64,000 nt of DNA from NCBI RefSeq assembly GCF_000615445.1, contig NZ_BALY01000002.1, positions 1 through 64,000 on the forward strand, given 5' to 3'. Positions 5,016 to 27,753 of this stretch are shown here, in pieces. The notes beneath the pieces were generated by a model, which saw nothing but the letters and a program-made list of their open reading frames with translations, was not told the origin of the DNA and did not search any database. Positions within the stretch are counted from its first letter, which is position 1, and every line of letters starts with the position of its first letter. The stretch is from Lactobacillus hamsteri DSM 5661 = JCM 6256. GTDB lineage: Bacteria > Bacillota > Bacilli > Lactobacillales > Lactobacillaceae. The translations under genes and the position numbers were made by a program.

Positions 5016-5986
5016 TTAGCTCTTTACCATGGCCAGTCCCTGACCAGTTGGCTTTGCTTTATGCAGAATATTAACTGCCGCGTTAATATCCCGGTCATGC
5101 CTAGCTTGACACTTAGGACAAGTCCATTCACGAATTTCTAATGGCTTGGCGCCACTGTTATAGCCGCATTCTGAACAAATTCTGGAGGTGTTTTTGGGAT
5201 CTACGGCAATTAGTATTTTACCGTACCATTTACATTTATATTCCAGCATTTGTCTGAACGTCCGCCATGAGGCATTGGCGATTGATTTGGCCAGGCAGTG
5301 ATTGTGTTGAAGATTCTTGGTTTTCAAATCTTCAATAACAATTACATCATACTGCTTGACCAAATGAGTTGTTAGCTTATGAAGATAATTCTTACGCTGA
5401 TTAGCCACTTTGGCTTGATATCTGGCTTTTAGCTTTTGGGCTTTTTGCCAGTTAGGCGATGCTTTTGAGGCTCAGACACTTCTGCCTGCAGAGACAGATA
5501 ATATTTGCCCGTTGGTTCAAGCACAACCGTATAACGCTTGATTTTAGCACCTTCCAAAAACCCTGTTTTACTGGTTTTAATATAACCCAACTTAGGGATC
5601 TTCAGGTATCGCTTGCCAGCAACTTTTATGATAGACTTGCCAGTATAAGACTTCTTCAAATACTTGCGCGAATGAAAGCGCGGCTTGCCAATTTTGCCGC
5701 TTTTATCTTGAAAGAAGTTTTTTCAAGACTGGGTTAGAAACTCATTAACTAGCTGCAGACTTGAAGAATCGCTGTTTTTCAAAAAGGGATATTCTTTCTT
5801 AAGCGGCTTAAGCAGGTAATTCAGTTTAAACTTGCCTAAAAAAGGCAAATCCTTATTATTCTGATAGCGCTCATTCATCATAGCCAGCATCTGGTTCCAG
5901 ACAAAACGATCATTGCCAAACATCTGCTCAAGCTGGTCTTGCTGGGTTTTGTTAGGATAGAGCCTTAACTTGATTCCCTTCAGCAC
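5016..5986 (-). pseudogene. tnpB: tnpB (RNA-guided endonuclease of the IS element), inactivated
   Basis: Three fragments of one TnpB. The N-terminal part starts at GTG 5986 (LKGIKLRLYPNKTQQ, the OrfB HTH domain) and stops at an in-frame TGA (5723-5725) where TnpB proteins normally have Trp in a WKNFF context. The same frame then continues (KIGKPRF..., to about 5429). It is then joined by an internal deletion/frameshift near 5450 to the C-terminal part, which has the RuvC-II Glu (VIVIEDL), the CSECG/CPKC zinc finger and the RuvC-III Asp (ARHDRDINAA). The block with the first RuvC Asp (the GIDLG region, very roughly 60-100 residues) is missing. The product could not cleave DNA even if read through. 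Confidence 0.88.
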
Positions 5987-6067
5987 ATTTGTTCCTTCCT
6001 TCTCGTAATATTGTATCAAACATATGTTCAAGAAAGGATGGGAACAAGCAAAAAAACTAAAGAAAAA

Positions 6068-6109: not shown

Positions 6110-7091
6110 ATATAATCAATAAATTGGCGAGCAATCTTTTATACAGTAACTGTTTTTGCTCTTATTGTGTTTATTGCGGGTTTATTCGTAGTTGGAAAAT
6201 ATCATGATCAAAAGAAAAACGGTTTTGATTGGCTAAGTTTTATAGTTTTGGCTGGTGCTTTTACTTGCTTAATATTAGTCTTGAATCAAATAAGTCATGG
6301 TCTTAAAAATATTTATTTATGGGTATTTTTGATTTTATCAATCACGCTTTTATATATTTTTATTAAACTTTCCAAAAATTCAACAAAAAAGCTACTTAAT
6401 TTAGCGGTTTTTAAGCAAAGGGCATTTGTCTATGGAGCAATAGCGTACTTTTTACTTCAATTTATTAATATTGGAACAAGCTTTGTCTTGCCAAATTATG
6501 TCCAAATTGTAGGTCATCAAACATCTTTGGTAGGTGGTCTAATACTCTTACCCGGTAGTATCATTGCAGGAGTACTAAATCCATTATTTGGCAATATATA
6601 TGATCATGTAGGTGCTAAACTTCCATTATTTTTGGGTGGAACAACGTTAGCAATAAGTTGCGTATTATTTTGGCTATTTGGTTTACATTTAACTTCATTA
6701 TTAATTGTTATAGTCTATGGTTTCTTAATGTTGGGGCATAGAATGGCATTTAGCAATACAATGGCTGAATCATTAAACTGTCAGCCTCAATCGTTAAGAG
6801 TAGACGCAACAGCTGTATGTCAAACTAGTCAGCAATTGGCTGGATCAGTTGGTACAACAATTATGGCTTCAATTATTGCTGTTTGGCAAAGTAAAGGTGG
6901 GGCTTCATATGCACAATTAACCGCTCAAGGTAGTCAAGCTGCATTTGGTTTTACGAGCTTATTAAGCATAATCATTCTTATTTCTTATTGGCGAATGTTT
7001 AAATTAGAAAATAAGAAAAATAATTAATTTAATACTAGTACATTTCACTAAAAATATACTATAATAAAAGTGAATGTTTGAAATAGGTGAG

Positions 7092-8379: not shown

Positions 8380-8430
8380 AAAATGTCTTAATGCTGAAAG
8401 CTTCAAAAGCCCAGTATTAAGGCATTTTTA
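8380..8430 (+). terminator. Terminator of the tRNA transcript
   Basis: A long imperfect stem, AAAATGtCTTAATgCTG with CAGtATTAAGgCATTTTT, ending in a T run 8 bases after tRNA-Gln. Confidence 0.85.
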
Positions 8431-8482
8431 TTTTGCCTAAATAAAAAATGAAAAATAAATTTGATTTTATTGCAAAAAAATA

Positions 8483-8514
8483 TTGACAGCATCTTTTAAT
8501 CGTAATAGTATAAT
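8483..8514 (+). promoter_or_regulatory. Promoter of the methionine T-box operon
   Basis: Perfect TTGACA (8483-8488). The -10 is either TAGTAT (8506-8511, 17-base spacer) or the overlapping consensus TATAAT (8509-8514, 20-base spacer). Transcription would start near 8520, at the first base of the T-box leader. Confidence 0.7.
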
Positions 8515-8520
8515 TACAAC

Positions 8521-8812
8521 AAAATTAAAGAAAGCTTAGAAGAGATGAGTAATCATTCAAGATTTCTTCAGAGAGTCGTGTTAGGTGAAAGACGATGTTA
8601 TTAAGGATGATGAAGATGGTCTCGGAGCTGACTAAAGAGCAAGCCATTTGGTAAGCAATTTACGTTTAACGATCGTTACCTCGTTCGAGTATATCCCGTT
8701 GAAGGAGTACTTAGTAAGGACTTTGTTGTGAAGCAGAGTTGAATAAGGGTGGTAACACGTTTAATAGCGTCCCTAGAAAAGTAAATTATGCTTTTCTAGA
8801 GGCGCTTTTTTG
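8521..8812 (+). promoter_or_regulatory. T-box riboswitch, probably methionine-specific
   Basis: A tRNA-sensing leader of about 290 bases. The conserved T-box GGGTGGTAACACG lies at 8747-8759 and begins the antiterminator. The alternative terminator pairs CCTAGAAAAG with CTTTTCTAG and ends in a T run at about 8806-8811. Stem I is long, with the AGAGAG and GGTGAAAG elements near its 5' side; in its 3' part an ATG sits in the specifier position (AAGATGGTCTC). Uncharged tRNA-Met would allow read-through into the 40-residue gene, the methionine synthase and possibly luxS. The Met assignment rests on that triplet and on the genes controlled. Confidence 0.88.
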
Positions 8813-8841
8813 TTTACCAATTGGAAAGGAGGATTAATCAT

Positions 8842-8964
8842 ATGGGAAGAATTGAAAATAAACATTTGGCAATTAGCAAGATCGACTTTAAGACGGCCTT
8901 CAAACGAATGTGCATCTTAGCATGGTTAGTCCTCATTATTATTGGACTGTTAATTGTTAAATAA
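8842..8964 (+). CDS. Small single-pass membrane protein, 40 residues, unknown
   Basis: An ORF starting ATG 8842 after a near-perfect AAAGGAGG (8825-8832) placed 9 bases upstream. The first 23 residues are polar and basic (MGRIENKHLAISKIDFKTAF), followed by a hydrophobic stretch of about 17 residues (CILAWLVLIIIGLLIV) and a final Lys: a typical one-helix membrane protein with a cytoplasmic N-terminus. It lies between the Met T-box terminator and the methionine synthase, 41 bases before the latter, so it should be regulated by methionine supply. I do not recognise a family. The strong ribosome site and position argue that it is real. Confidence 0.65.
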   Translation: MGRIENKHLAISKIDFKTAFKRMCILAWLVLIIIGLLIVK

Positions 8965-9005
8965 AAAACGTAGTTTAAAATATTTTTGATTTTGGAGATA
9001 ATAAT

Positions 9006-10118
9006 ATGAAAAATTTACATTATGATATCGTCGGTAGTTTTTTACGACCAGTTCAATTAAAAGAAGCTAGAAGAGATTTTGCTGCAGGCAAGCTCTCACT
9101 TTATGAGTTGCGTGAAGTAGAAAATCAATGTATTGCGGAATTAGTTAAGAAAGAAATTGACCAGGGATTAAAAGTAGTAACTGATGGGGAATTTAGAAGA
9201 AGCTACTGGCACCTTGATACATTTTGGGGCTTTGATGGCATCTCCCATACTACACAAAAACAAGGTTATCTGTTCCATGATGAAGAAACACGTAACGATT
9301 CAGCACAAGTAAACGGTAAAATTCGTTTTGCAGGTGATCATCCAGATTTGGAGGCCTTCAAGTTTTTACGCAACTTGACTAAAGATGCTGACGTGGTAGC
9401 AAGACAAAGTATTCCTGCGCCGGCCCAATTTTATGCTGAACTTGTCAGAGGACCTGAAAACGTGGCTGCAGTGAAGAAGTACTATCCAAATGAAGCCGAT
9501 TTGTTTAAGGATGTTGAGCAAGCTTATCATGATTTGATTATTGCGCTTTACAAAGCAGGCTGTCGGGATCTTAAGATTGATGATTGTACTTGGGGTATGG
9601 TAGTTGACAATGATTTTTGGGCAACAATGGTTAAGCAAGGTTTCAATCGTGAAGATCTAGAACAAAAGTATCTTGAATTGAACAATAAAGCCTTGCAAGA
9701 TTTACCTCAGGATTTGCGCCTCTCAACCCATATTTGTCGTGGTAATTATCACTCAACTTGGGCAGCCAAAGGTGGCTATGCTCCGGTAGCAGACTATGTT
9801 TTCGCTAAAGAAAATGTCGATACCTTTTACCTAGAGTTCGATGATGAACGTTCTGGTGGTTTTGAACCATTAGCCAAGGTTCCGGCTGATAAAGAAGTAG
9901 TCTTAGGCCTAGTTACTAGTAAGAGACCCGATTTAGAAAAAGCGGCTGACCTGGAGCAGAAAGTAAAAAAGGCAAGTGAATATCATGATTTAGATCACCT
10001 AGCTTTAAGTACTCAATGTGGATTTGCCTCAACCGAAGAAGGTAATCAATTAAGCGAAGACCAAGAATGGGCAAAAATCAAGTTGGTTGAATCAACCGCT
10101 AATAGTATTTGGAAATAG
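9006..10118 (+). CDS. Methionine synthase-like protein (MetE C-terminal domain, YxjG/YxjH type)
   Basis: Cobalamin-independent methionine synthase family, 370 residues: a single catalytic barrel corresponding to the C-terminal half of MetE. It is likely to methylate homocysteine to methionine with a folate or other methyl donor. Expected zinc/homocysteine ligands are visible in order: His and Cys in STHICRGN (near residue 243), Glu in YLEFDDERSG and Cys in STQCGFAS (near residue 338). The N-terminus (HYDIVGSFLRP, then VTDGEFRRSYW) is typical of the Bacillus YxjG/YxjH pair. Placed behind a Met T-box and 38 bases before luxS, which produces homocysteine. The exact methyl donor is not evident. 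Confidence 0.85.
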   Translation: MKNLHYDIVGSFLRPVQLKEARRDFAAGKLSLYELREVENQCIAELVKKEIDQGLKVVTDGEFRRSYWHLDTFWGFDGISHTTQKQGYLFHDEETRNDSAQVNGKIRFAGDHPDLEAFKFLRNLTKDADVVARQSIPAPAQFYAELVRGPENVAAVKKYYPNEADLFKDVEQAYHDLIIALYKAGCRDLKIDDCTWGMVVDNDFWATMVKQGFNREDLEQKYLELNNKALQDLPQDLRLSTHICRGNYHSTWAAKGGYAPVADYVFAKENVDTFYLEFDDERSGGFEPLAKVPADKEVVLGLVTSKRPDLEKAADLEQKVKKASEYHDLDHLALSTQCGFASTEEGNQLSEDQEWAKIKLVESTANSIWK

Positions 10119-10156: not shown

Positions 10157-10633
10157 ATGGGAAAAGTTGAAAGTTTTACATTAGATCATACTAAAGTTAA
10201 GGCACCTTACGTTCGGTTAATTACAGTTGAACAAGGCAAGAAGGGCGATCAAATTTCTAACTTTGACTTGCGTTTAGTTCAACCAAATGAAAATGCTATT
10301 CCAACTGGTGGATTGCACACAGTTGAACACTTATTAGCAAGTTTGCTTCGTGATCGCATTGATGGTTATATTGACTGTTCACCATTTGGGTGTCGTACAG
10401 GCTTTCACCTTTTAGTTTGGGGAACGCCAAGTACAACAGAAGTTGCTAAGGCACTGAAGTCTAGTTTAGAAGAAATTAGAGATAATATTGAATGGAAAGA
10501 TGTACCCGGAACTACTATAAAGACTTGTGGTAATTATCGTGATCATTCACTCTTTTCTGCTAAGGAATGGTGCAAGAAGATTTTAAATGAAGGCGTTTCA
10601 GATGACCCATTCAATAGAAATGTCGTTGAATAA
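10157..10633 (+). CDS. luxS: S-ribosylhomocysteine lyase LuxS
   Basis: Metalloenzyme that splits S-ribosylhomocysteine into homocysteine and DPD, the precursor of AI-2. Length 158 residues is standard. The metal ligands His54 and His58 (HTVEH, with catalytic Glu57) and Cys124 (TCGNYRDHS) are present, as is the catalytic Cys79 in FGCRTGF. Together with mtnN at 61980 (upstream step) and the methionine synthase just before it, it closes the activated methyl cycle. It is probably transcribed from the same Met T-box promoter; no terminator lies between the two genes. Confidence 0.97.
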
Positions 10634-10649
10634 AAAAGATAATAAGTTA

Positions 10650-10922
10650 ATATTTTACGATCTTGAACAGCAGAGTAACTAAAGAGGATGTTGTACAGAG
10701 AGCTGACGTTGGGTGAAAGTCAGTCAACAGAGACTTAGTGAATATGGGCTGGAAATGGTCATAATTAGTGAGAGTTAGCTAATTACAAATTGGCAAGCGT
10801 TATCAATGCCGGCTATGTTAGTAGTTAGTGAGGTTTATTGCGTGAGCAATAGATAAAAAAGGGTGGTAACACGCAAGAAGCGTCCCTGGAAGTATAAATT
10901 TTACTTCTAGGGACGCTTTTTT
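10650..10922 (+). promoter_or_regulatory. Second T-box riboswitch, probably methionine-specific
   Basis: The conserved GGGTGGTAACACG lies at 10861-10873. A competing terminator pairs GCGTCCCTGGAAGTA with TACTTCTAGGGACGC and ends in Ts (10880-10922). Stem I carries AGAGAG, GGTGAAAG and a candidate ATG specifier in GAATATGGGC (10743-10745). It would control a methionine ABC transporter, but the gene behind it is now a metN remnant, so the riboswitch looks orphaned. No strong promoter is visible between luxS and the leader. Confidence 0.85.
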
Positions 10923-10941
10923 ATGGAAAGGATAGTTGAAG

Positions 10942-11091
10942 ATGGCAAGTATCAAACTAAAACATATTGAAGTTGATTTTCCTAAACATAAGATTAAGGC
11001 AGTTAATGATGTATCGTTAACGATCAAGCAGAAATTTGCCGGAACGAAAGTTGAAGTAAAAAGATCGGTTTCATATTTAAATGAAGACTAA
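10942..11091 (+). pseudogene. metN: metN remnant: both ends of a methionine ABC transporter ATPase with an in-frame internal deletion
   Basis: A 49-codon ORF with a good ribosome site (GGAAAGGAT). Residues 1-30 (MASIKLKHIEVDFPKHK, then AVNDVSLTI) match the start of MetN ATPases, which should continue into the Walker A loop. Instead the sequence jumps to GTKVEVKRSVSYLNED, which resembles the end of the MetN C-terminal NIL ligand-binding domain. The Walker A, signature and Walker B motifs are all absent, and no metI or metQ follows. It is translated in one frame, so a short peptide may be made, but it cannot be an ATPase. The C-terminal match is from memory of the family and less certain than the N-terminal one. 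Confidence 0.72.
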
Positions 11092-13243: not shown

Positions 13244-14331
13244 ATGGATAAAGTTATGGCGCAATTGGAAGGCCTTGTTGCTCACTACGAAGAACTTCAA
13301 GAAATGATGGCTGACCCAGAAGTTATTAATGATACTAAGCGCTACATGGAGATTTCAAAAGAAGAAGCCGATCTTCGTGAAGTGGTTCAAAAGTATAAGA
13401 AATATAAAGAAAATCAAAAAGAAATTAACGATAATAAAGAAATTATTTCTAGTGAATCTGATCCTGATATAGTCGAAATGGCTAAGGAAGAAAATAATGA
13501 ACTTGAAAAAGAACTTCCTGAACTTGAAGATCAAATTAAGATTTTGATGCTTCCAAAAGACCCTAACGATGATAAAGATATTATCATGGAAATTCGTGGT
13601 GCTGCCGGTGGTGATGAAGCTTCATTATTTGCTGGTGATTTGCTTAGAATGTATGAAAAGTATGCTGAACGTCAAGGTGGAATGTTTCAATGGTTGATTC
13701 AGAACCAACTGAAGTCGGCGGTTACAAGCGTGTGGCTATTATGATTACTGGTGATAAGGTTTACTCAAAACTTAAGTATGAAAATGGTGCCCACCGTGTT
13801 CAAAGAATCCCAGTAACTGAATCCCAAGGTCGTGTTCATACTTCAACTGCTACAGTTGCAGTTATGCCTGAATATGAACAAGTTGATATTGATATTGATC
13901 CTAAAGATATTCGTGTCGATGTTTATCGTTCAAGTGGTGCCGGTGGTCAGCACATTAACAAGACTTCCAGTGCGGTTCGTATGACTCACCTTCCAACAGG
14001 TATTGTAGTTGCAATGCAGGATCAACGTAGTCAACAACAAAACCGTGAAAAGGCTATGCAAATTTTGAAGTCACGTGTTTATGATTACTATGAAAGTCAA
14101 AACCGTGATAAATATGATGCTAAGCGTAAAAATGCTGTAGGTACTGGTGACCGTTCTGAAAGAATTAGAACTTACAACTATCCTCAAAACCGTGTTACTG
14201 ATCACCGTATTGGTTTAACTATTAACAAACTTGATCGTGTAATGAATGGTGAACTTGAAGAAATAATTGATGCACTTATTCTTTACAACCAAACTAAGCA
14301 ATTAGAGGAGTTAGCTGATCAAAATGCCTAA
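13244..14331 (+). CDS. prfA: Peptide chain release factor 1, with a single-base frameshift
   Basis: RF1 ends translation at UAA/UAG. The first 145 codons lie in one frame and end in an aberrant tail at 13744; from about 13678 the next frame carries the rest. Restoring one T in CAAGGTGG (13673-13680) gives QGW followed by NVSMVDSEP and an uninterrupted 362-residue RF1. The PVT stop-recognition tripeptide ([10 protein letters not shown]) and the GAGGQ peptidyl-hydrolysis motif are both in the second part. RF1 is essential, and programmed frameshifting is known for prfB, not prfA, so a sequence error is the likeliest explanation. It lies 26 bases after tdk and overlaps prmC by 8 bases. Confidence 0.93.
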
Positions 14332-27546: not shown

Positions 27547-27753
27547 TTTAAATTCAAAATAAAAATCTGAGTTGACTGAACATAGCATAATGACGCTTGT
27601 TGAACCCGCAATGTTCAATATTTGAGTTAGTATCGCAGCGAATATGGATCCTGAGCATGTCAGTATTCCGATTCGGTAGTTATTTACTAACTCCCACGTC
27701 TTATAGTTTGATCGGTCAACTTTATACATTTAAGCTTGTCGATCAACTCAGAT
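27517..27753 (-). ncRNA. Lacto-usp RNA, candidate 6S RNA
   Basis: A free-standing structured RNA on the minus strand between rarA and the usp unit. Its ends pair perfectly over 11 bp (27743-27753 with 27565-27575, reading ATCTGAGTTGA). A second 9-bp helix pairs GAGTTAGTA with TACTAACTC inside, followed by a nested apical hairpin (GAATA...TATTC around CTGA...TCAG). This long interrupted hairpin with internal bubbles is the 6S architecture. It has its own promoter (27759-27790), and a terminator at its 3' end. Position before an unknown gene plus usp matches the published Lacto-usp motif, proposed to be the 6S RNA of these species; 6S genes also neighbour rarA in Bacillus. Confidence 0.82.

Follow-up and report, generated by a model that had tools for sequence, protein, structure and literature searches.

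Chen and Yanofsky reportedly described, in 2003 and 2004, how the rtpA (anti-TRAP) operon of Bacillus subtilis combines a T-box with a leader peptide behind it, rtpLP, which is said to sense the same uncharged tRNA. The rtpLP reading frame has about 10 codons and contains three tandem Trp codons. In translation attenuators of the erm and cat type, a leader ORF is accompanied by segments masking a ribosome site. In lactobacilli, a yxjH-luxS operon under a Met T-box is already known, according to the main text of a previous study (PMC6004538), where yxjH of L. paracasei was higher in methionine-deficient than in cysteine-deficient medium (log2 1.3) and luxS did not change significantly. Masking of a ribosome site is also described for Fst RNA I, whose Shine-Dalgarno sequence is sequestered in an intramolecular stem-loop (PMC8309996).

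Here, we analysed a small ORF that lies between a Met T-box and the methionine synthase gene metE in a stretch of 64,000 nucleotides of Lactobacillus hamsteri, referred to below as the window. An earlier note on this DNA had described the ORF as a 40-residue membrane protein of no named family, with a strong ribosome site and a one-helix topology.

Organization of the metE-luxS locus

The following features, all on the plus strand, make up the locus:

8483..8511, +: promoter-like sequence TTGACA-17-TAGTAT, found in a consensus scan ahead of the T-box
8528..8777, +: Met T-box leader (Rfam RF00230, 90.0 bits, E 1.3e-19)
8616-8618, +: specifier AUG of the T-box (GAAG-AUG-G), from the covariance alignment
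8767..8811, +: terminator hairpin of the T-box with its T run, read in the sequence
8825..8832, +: ribosome site of the small ORF, AAAGGAGG, as found in the sequence
8842..8964, +: small ORF, ATG to TAA, 40 codons (ORF call), with one predicted C-terminal membrane helix
9006..10118, +: B12-independent methionine synthase (metE; YxjH/PRK06520 type), matched by PF01717 and NCBIfam NF005085, both over cut-off
10157..10633, +: luxS (PF02664, E 1.7e-52)

The match to RF00230 spans the full model and lies 3 bits below the gathering score of 93. We nevertheless judge the Met T-box at 8528-8777 to be real on the sequence evidence, and the specifier motif GAA-N-ATGG was present in all 24 leaders with a T-box core among 29 homologous loci. 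The terminator was not listed by a simple hairpin scan, whose loop limit is 8. The consensus scan of 8380-9200 returned four promoter-like sites, with 3.2 expected in shuffled sequences; the site at 8483-8511 is likely the promoter of the T-box, as judged from its 10/12 match and its position before the T-box. The ribosome site AAAGGAGG ends 9 nt before the ATG, and base-shuffling the gap 8813-9005 20,000 times never yielded AGGAGG-N4..10-ATG with 40 open codons. Thus, both the strong ribosome site and the location between a Met T-box and a methionine synthase that had been claimed for the ORF held up.

Conservation and predicted product of the small ORF

The most hydrophobic 17-residue stretch of the product comprised residues 23-39, with a Kyte-Doolittle mean of 3.22 (hydropathy was calculated for four of the seven helix-class ORFs and two of the nine short ORFs introduced below, the TTG start of G070 being entered as M). 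AlphaFold2, run with a 7-row alignment, gave a single helix from residue 3 to 39 with a mean pLDDT of 77.1 and a pTM of 0.37, in keeping with the one-helix topology proposed earlier. No Pfam family was over cut-off, DUF624 being the only match (14.7 bits, cut-off 24.2), and none in NCBIfam, where the sole listed match was YohP (PRK14762; E 5, 7.2 bits, cut-off 58). The ORF thus indeed belongs to no named family in these two collections. A literature search found no description of it, an absence that does not prove it to be unpublished.

Clear helix-type homologues were found in 7 of 75 genomes of the genus, that of the window included (E 9.7e-22 to 7.6e-5). Altogether, 23 genomes matched at E<=1, of which the seven with E<=7.6e-5 were counted and the other 16 (E 0.0133-0.84) were left out; among these weak extra matches, frames were displayed for L008, L009, L012 and L024. 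Since a single protein was too short a query for finding relatives, the 7-row alignment (A1) was used instead. In genome contigs, it returned four named relatives (L. xujianguonis, L. kefiranofaciens, L. gallinarum and an uncultured Lactobacillus); in viral contigs, it returned no relatives. Beyond the genus, searches of 397 genomes of the family (E<=0.01) and 395 of the order (E<=0.001) gave only weak partial matches, in G184, G283, G401 and G139. As a possible relative, L061 of G184 was judged from its sequence to be a chance match. All seven homologues adjoin metE and luxS in the order T-box core, ORF, metE, luxS.

Ten residues are invariant in the seven ORFs: M1, R22, M23, C24, W28, I32, I33, G35, L36 and V39. 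Residues of the helix exchange among I, V, L and F, and W, G-L and V are retained. dN was smaller than dS in 18 of the 21 pairs of this class, that is, in all pairs for which an estimate was obtained, some with saturated dS. In a randomised-mutation test that covered 7 of the 21 possible pairs, amino-acid changes were too few in five (P 0.0004-0.017); the window and L. xujianguonis, for example, differed by 14 amino-acid changes where 21.7 were expected (P 0.0004). No constraint on amino acids was detected for G068 and L. kefiranofaciens (P 0.87) or for G060 and L. gallinarum (P 0.45, with only four changes). The last nine codons, which lie outside the RNA pairing described below, were constrained at P<=0.05 in four of the seven pairs, and pooling of window-L. 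xujianguonis with G010-L. gallinarum gave 5 changes in this part versus 8.3 expected (P 0.02). The reading frame, whose lack of conservation the earlier note had named as grounds for rejection, is conserved. The small ORF is a conserved gene under purifying selection.

Helix-less versions of the ORF

Of 38 metE matches, 30 were examined at the locus level (eight came without locus DNA), and a partial gene, L057, was dropped, which left 29 loci. A T-box core was present in 24 of them. In 16 loci, the core lay 223-258 nt before metE and the gap contained an ORF with its own ribosome site; luxS followed metE in all 16. In the other eight core-bearing loci, the core was 87-150 nt before metE and no ORF of at least 20 codons was found between the two. 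The 16 ORF loci derive from about six lineages and comprise the seven of the helix class and nine with helix-less, mostly shorter ORFs (30-43 codons). Five of the latter (class 2: G071, G069, G020, G014 and G033) encode a peptide resembling MKNKCIVFNERVFNRMCYLNMIPFVSGSSKNI, and four (class 3: G070, G059, G023 and G022) have a TTG start and the motif VF[NY]R[MI]C. The best 17-residue hydropathy was 0.76 and 0.82 in the two of the nine for which it was calculated. All nine keep the ribosome site, an invariant CGA codon, the R-M/I-C motif containing it and a downstream segment B; the last three are described below.

Selection at the protein level was not detectable in the short ORFs, with none of six pairs at P<=0.05. 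From the ribosome site to metE, the leaders of classes 2 and 3 were 71-78% identical in three pairs, versus 43% and 38% identity at fourfold sites of metE in two pairs. Because leader identity is well above that of the fourfold sites, the helix-less leaders are probably under constraint. Gapped alignment inflates leader identity, as is evident from G071 and L. gallinarum, which still reach 54% over an alignment with 54 gap columns.

When luxS of 23 loci was placed in a tree, all 16 ORF-bearing loci fell on one side of a branch with support of 100/98, together with a single ORF-less member, G004; the six loci on the other side are all ORF-less. One gain and one loss would be enough to explain this distribution. 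The G004 locus (L034) has the order T-box, metE, luxS within the ORF-bearing luxS group, and is a natural loss of the ORF. The metE genes form two deep clades, with that of L. kefiranofaciens in the second, and the leaders of L. kefiranofaciens and G010 share 77% identity. As the comparison of L. kefiranofaciens with G068 and G010 shows, metE was exchanged beneath the same T-box, leader and luxS, pointing to gene replacement in place.

A predicted hairpin that can mask the ORF's own ribosome site

Two segments of the window are complementary to each other:

8829..8841, +: segment A, GAGGATTAATCAT, which forms 13 pairs with segment B
8922..8934, +: segment B, ATGGTTAGTCCTC, inside the ORF, which can mask the ORF's own ribosome site

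In the window, the 13 pairs are consecutive (8829-8841 with 8922-8934). The A:B pairing is possible in all 16 ORF loci, with a longest run of 8 (G033) to 14 pairs (G060 and L. gallinarum), and segment B follows the invariant CGA codon by 18-22 nt throughout. When RNAduplex was free to choose the partner of A anywhere from base 25 of the ORF to metE, it chose B in 15 of 16 loci, the exception being G069. The spacer before the ATG varies between lineages, and B varies along with it. Compared with dinucleotide shuffles of the target, A:B was better at P<=0.05 in 12 of 16 loci; the four that failed were G060, L. gallinarum, G069 and G033. The weakest duplexes of the short classes were those of G069 and G033. 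In G033 (L056), metE carries an internal TGA, the hairpin is weakened and the short ORF has lost 1 nt; the TGA in metE fits relaxed selection in this genome.

The 16 loci gave 14 distinct rows (two pairs are identical), in which 84.6% of the cells were paired. Covariation was 0.439; the shuffles gave 0.287, none of 500 being as high, and slid registers gave 0.253 at most. The register of A had been placed by complementarity, which favours the helix. Double-sided changes were seen at 7 of 13 pairs versus 5.1 in shuffles (28 of 500 as high), and further pair types numbered 18 versus 15.7 (44 of 500 as high). Independent of the hand-set register was a swap test with 7 of the 16 loci, six of which, one per lineage, entered the permutations. 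With their own partners, the six summed to -105.0 kcal/mol versus a mean of -79.0, and only 6 of 720 pairings were as low; the own partner was the single best in only four of seven rows, A of L. xujianguonis, for example, pairing better with the B of the window.

Controls with the protein held fixed gave mixed results. The energy of the duplex gave P values of 0.009-0.35 in codon shuffles and 0.005-0.19 on resampling. Pairing at B itself gave P 0.003 in the window, 0.047 in L. gallinarum, 0.050 in G060 and 0.066 in G068, and 0.17, 0.25 and 0.27 in G010, L. kefiranofaciens and L. xujianguonis, respectively.

In folds of a transcript ending just past B, the mean probability of the A:B core was 0.78-1.00 in all 16 loci. 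In the full transcript, it was at least 0.5 in 10 loci and lower in six, the window being at 0.08. For the window, the folds predict A:B in a transcript that stops at the end of the ORF and its disappearance after the metE start has been transcribed. Since the core probability is high just past B and low in some full transcripts, the predicted hairpin is most readily understood as a feature of the transcript during its synthesis. The feature common to all 16 loci is, as read from their sequences, an RNA hairpin that can mask the ORF's own start. Neither this pairing of ribosome site and codons nor the existence of helix-less versions had been recognized in the earlier note.

A conserved CGA-ATG-TGC motif upstream of segment B

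Upstream of segment B, the ORF contains the following motif:

8905..8913, +: CGA-ATG-TGC (Arg-Met-Cys, R-M-C), with CGA invariant in 16 of 16 loci

Codon usage was determined from 43 long ORFs of the window, from metE genes and from the loci of four relatives (49-115 Arg codons each). CGA is a rare codon, accounting for 9.6% of the Arg codons in the long window ORFs and for 4-20% in the relatives' loci. In the metE genes of the seven helix species, eight Arg sites are invariant, and not one of them uses a single codon throughout; of 128 invariant residues, Met and Trp not counted, 10 do so in all seven. The CGA codon precedes the Trp codon of B by 18 nt in the helix class; in classes 2 and 3, it precedes the anchor of B by 19 or 22 nt. 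A distance of 18-22 nt is about that from the decoding site of a ribosome to its front edge, and because the distance from CGA to B matches it, the arrangement suggests a ribosome pause at CGA-AUG-UGC.

Each of the seven helix ORFs has one internal Met codon. The nine short ORFs have two in six cases, three in G069 and one in G023 and G022, and the Met codons are never adjacent. The lone internal Met codon of the helix ORFs would make a weak sensor of methionine.

Predicted effects on the metE ribosome site

To what extent ribosomes on the leader could open the ribosome site of metE was calculated from folds, and the outcome differed between the classes. In class 3, opening the metE site cost 8.3-11.6 kcal/mol. 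Covering the leader up to R-M-C lowered this to 5.0-6.9 kcal/mol, and a ribosome at the ORF stop lowered it to 2.8-5.3 kcal/mol; a single ribosome at R-M-C left it at 8.3-11.5 versus 8.3-11.6 kcal/mol. In class 2, a ribosome at R-M-C gave the same or a higher cost in all five loci, and other ribosome states altered it little, G014 excepted. In the helix class, a ribosome at R-M-C lowered the cost by 0.8-2.6 kcal/mol in five of seven loci: in L. gallinarum from 6.1 to 4.1, in G060 from 6.5 to 3.9, and by 0.8-1.8 kcal/mol in G068, G010 and L. kefiranofaciens. The window and L. xujianguonis showed no change with a ribosome at this position; in L. xujianguonis, covering the leader or placing a ribosome at the stop lowered the cost from 5.6 to about 3.2 kcal/mol. 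A large predicted effect is confined to class 3 with the leader covered or a ribosome at the ORF stop, and control of metE translation by the leader is no more than a possibility.

Only two of the 16 loci, L. gallinarum and G060, had a pairing between the metE site and the ORF that was better than in shuffles (P 0.02 and 0.03, respectively); in both, UCUCCUUGUA, which lies between R-M-C and segment B, is able to pair with that site. On the same shuffle test, the idea that the metE site pairs with the ORF in one way throughout the helix class was dropped. We also considered and dropped pairing of the R-M-C codons with the metE start, which was likely in G020 and G033 and had a probability of <=0.18 in the other 12 of 14 folded loci.

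Other features of the window

A second Met T-box lies in the region 10654-11091 (RF00230, 95.7 bits, above gathering). The short ORF behind it begins with about 28 residues (MASIKLKHIEVDFPKHKIKAVNDVSLTI) that resemble the start of a MetN-type ABC ATPase and then break off; no Pfam match was found for it at 0.01. Together, this T-box and ORF may be what remains of a lost methionine transporter operon. At 13244-14331, release factor 1 is encoded in two overlapping frames, the first with PCRF and the second with the end of PCRF and the RF-1 domain. Because the frameshift falls in an essential gene, it is perhaps a sequencing or assembly error. On the minus strand, 5016-6031 contains broken pieces of an IS605-type OrfB/TnpB, two of which have HTH_OrfB_IS605 and Cas12f1-like TNB domains. 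Directly beside this broken element, the match of an MFS transporter ORF (6167-7027) to the MFS_1 profile, which has 347 positions, is limited to positions 158-347, so that the ORF seems to be without its first half. A Lacto-usp RNA (RF01710, 96.2 bits) was found at 27624-27713 on the minus strand.

Discussion

We tentatively favor, with a confidence that falls a little short of even, the reading that the small ORF is a translated leader with a self-masking start which provides a second, translational checkpoint behind the Met T-box, and that its product is in addition a selected single-helix membrane peptide in some species, L. hamsteri among them. A cis-acting role of the RNA or leader as at least part of the function is proposed because of the hairpin and the helix-less versions. 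How such a checkpoint might operate can be outlined as follows. When methionine is short, the T-box would let RNA polymerase pass, and a ribosome would load onto the ORF before segment B is transcribed. With Met-tRNA scarce, this ribosome would slow down at CGA-AUG-UGC with its front edge against B; B would then be blocked, A would remain open and more ribosomes could fill the leader. With plentiful Met-tRNA, the ribosome would continue, B would fold onto A and the ORF would be closed. In class 3, ribosomes covering the leader up to R-M-C, or one at the ORF stop, would also free the metE ribosome site, as the folds suggest, but a single ribosome at R-M-C would not. The complete two-step version, in which the T-box decides on transcription while ribosomes at CGA-AUG-UGC hold the self-masking ORF open and thereby control whether the metE-luxS message is translated or survives, the ORF being bifunctional with a membrane peptide in some lactobacilli and a helix-less RNA/ribosome switch in others, is in our view unlikely to hold as a whole.

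The ORF could also be nothing but a gene for a small membrane protein, in which case only the 40-residue product would matter, made along with metE and luxS under methionine shortage, and the hairpin would merely limit its yield. Purifying selection across the ORF in five of seven pairs argues for this, as do the constraint on the last nine codons outside B in four of seven pairs and the retention of W, G-L and V in the helix. However, 9 of the 16 loci have a helix-less ORF that retains the ribosome site, CGA and B, and the leaders of the short ORFs are more conserved than the fourfold sites of metE although selection on their peptides is undetectable (0 of 6 pairs), so that we consider this explanation somewhat unlikely. 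The opposite extreme would be a pure leader peptide, whose product has no job and whose translation controls metE, the helix being a leftover or a by-product of the pairing codons. Here the helix-less classes speak in favor, as does the exchange of metE behind a retained leader (L. kefiranofaciens has a metE of the other clade and a leader 77% identical to that of G010), but selection on the helix-class protein extends beyond B and the folds of this class show no consistent effect on the metE site, which makes it improbable. The earlier note had further proposed that the protein modulates a transporter or senses the membrane. Nothing pointed in this direction: the ORF lies between T-box and metE-luxS in 16 of 16 loci and lacks the helix in nine of them. 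For the membrane peptide, a minor regulatory role in the membrane would be our guess. An arrest peptide of the MifM type that senses membrane insertion was discarded by reasoning, since the C-terminal helix cannot exit the ribosome before termination.

Two further explanations carry little weight. Its size, single helix and maskable ribosome site would suit a type I toxin-like membrane peptide whose ribosome site is hidden in the mRNA, as in Fst RNA I, yet a simple scan of 8380-9200 found no promoter-like site on the minus strand, no Pfam toxin family was matched, the ORF resides within a biosynthetic operon in all 16 loci and masking occurs without a helix in nine; we regard this as extremely unlikely. 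A chance frame with chance complementarity would account for the weak A:B tests of several single genomes, but no such ORF arose in 20,000 shuffles, frame and position are conserved and the pairs covary. Chance is already refuted as regards the ORF, and as an explanation of the whole it is very unlikely.

If the favored reading of a self-masking leader behind the T-box is true, the locus would add another natural example of a leader ORF placed behind a T-box, the two possibly responding to a single amino acid. Selection would here act on the product of the leader ORF in some species, while others could do without it. The locus would also offer a view of a leader ORF and a small membrane protein interconverting. 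It also calls for caution, since the conservation of small ORFs called as proteins may partly reflect RNA pairing.

Among known one-helix proteins, YohP (PRK14762) shares the single membrane helix, but the small ORF is not a member of this family (7.2 bits against a cut-off of 58). With Fst-type toxin mRNAs (PMC8309996), it shares a short one-helix peptide and a ribosome site masked in the mRNA; unlike them, it is embedded in an operon, lacks homology to them and shows, in a sequence scan, no sign of an antisense RNA. The lactobacillar yxjH-luxS operon has the same T-box and the same gene order, whereas the main text of that study mentions no ORF between T-box and gene (PMC6004538). Like the erm/cat-type attenuators, the leaders described here combine a leader ORF with masking segments, and those of classes 2 and 3 have segments for a possible alternative pairing; the site masked in all 16 loci, however, belongs to the leader itself and not to the downstream gene. 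Among known arrangements, that of rtpLP comes nearest, with a T-box, a small ORF with its own ribosome site and the regulated gene, in which both layers could read one tRNA. In contrast to rtpLP, the ORFs have 30-43 codons, those of the helix class contain a single internal Met codon, and a ribosome-site hairpin lies inside the ORF; in seven genomes, the product also has a membrane helix. Because a run of sensor codons is missing, we do not assign the L. hamsteri ORF to the rtpLP type.
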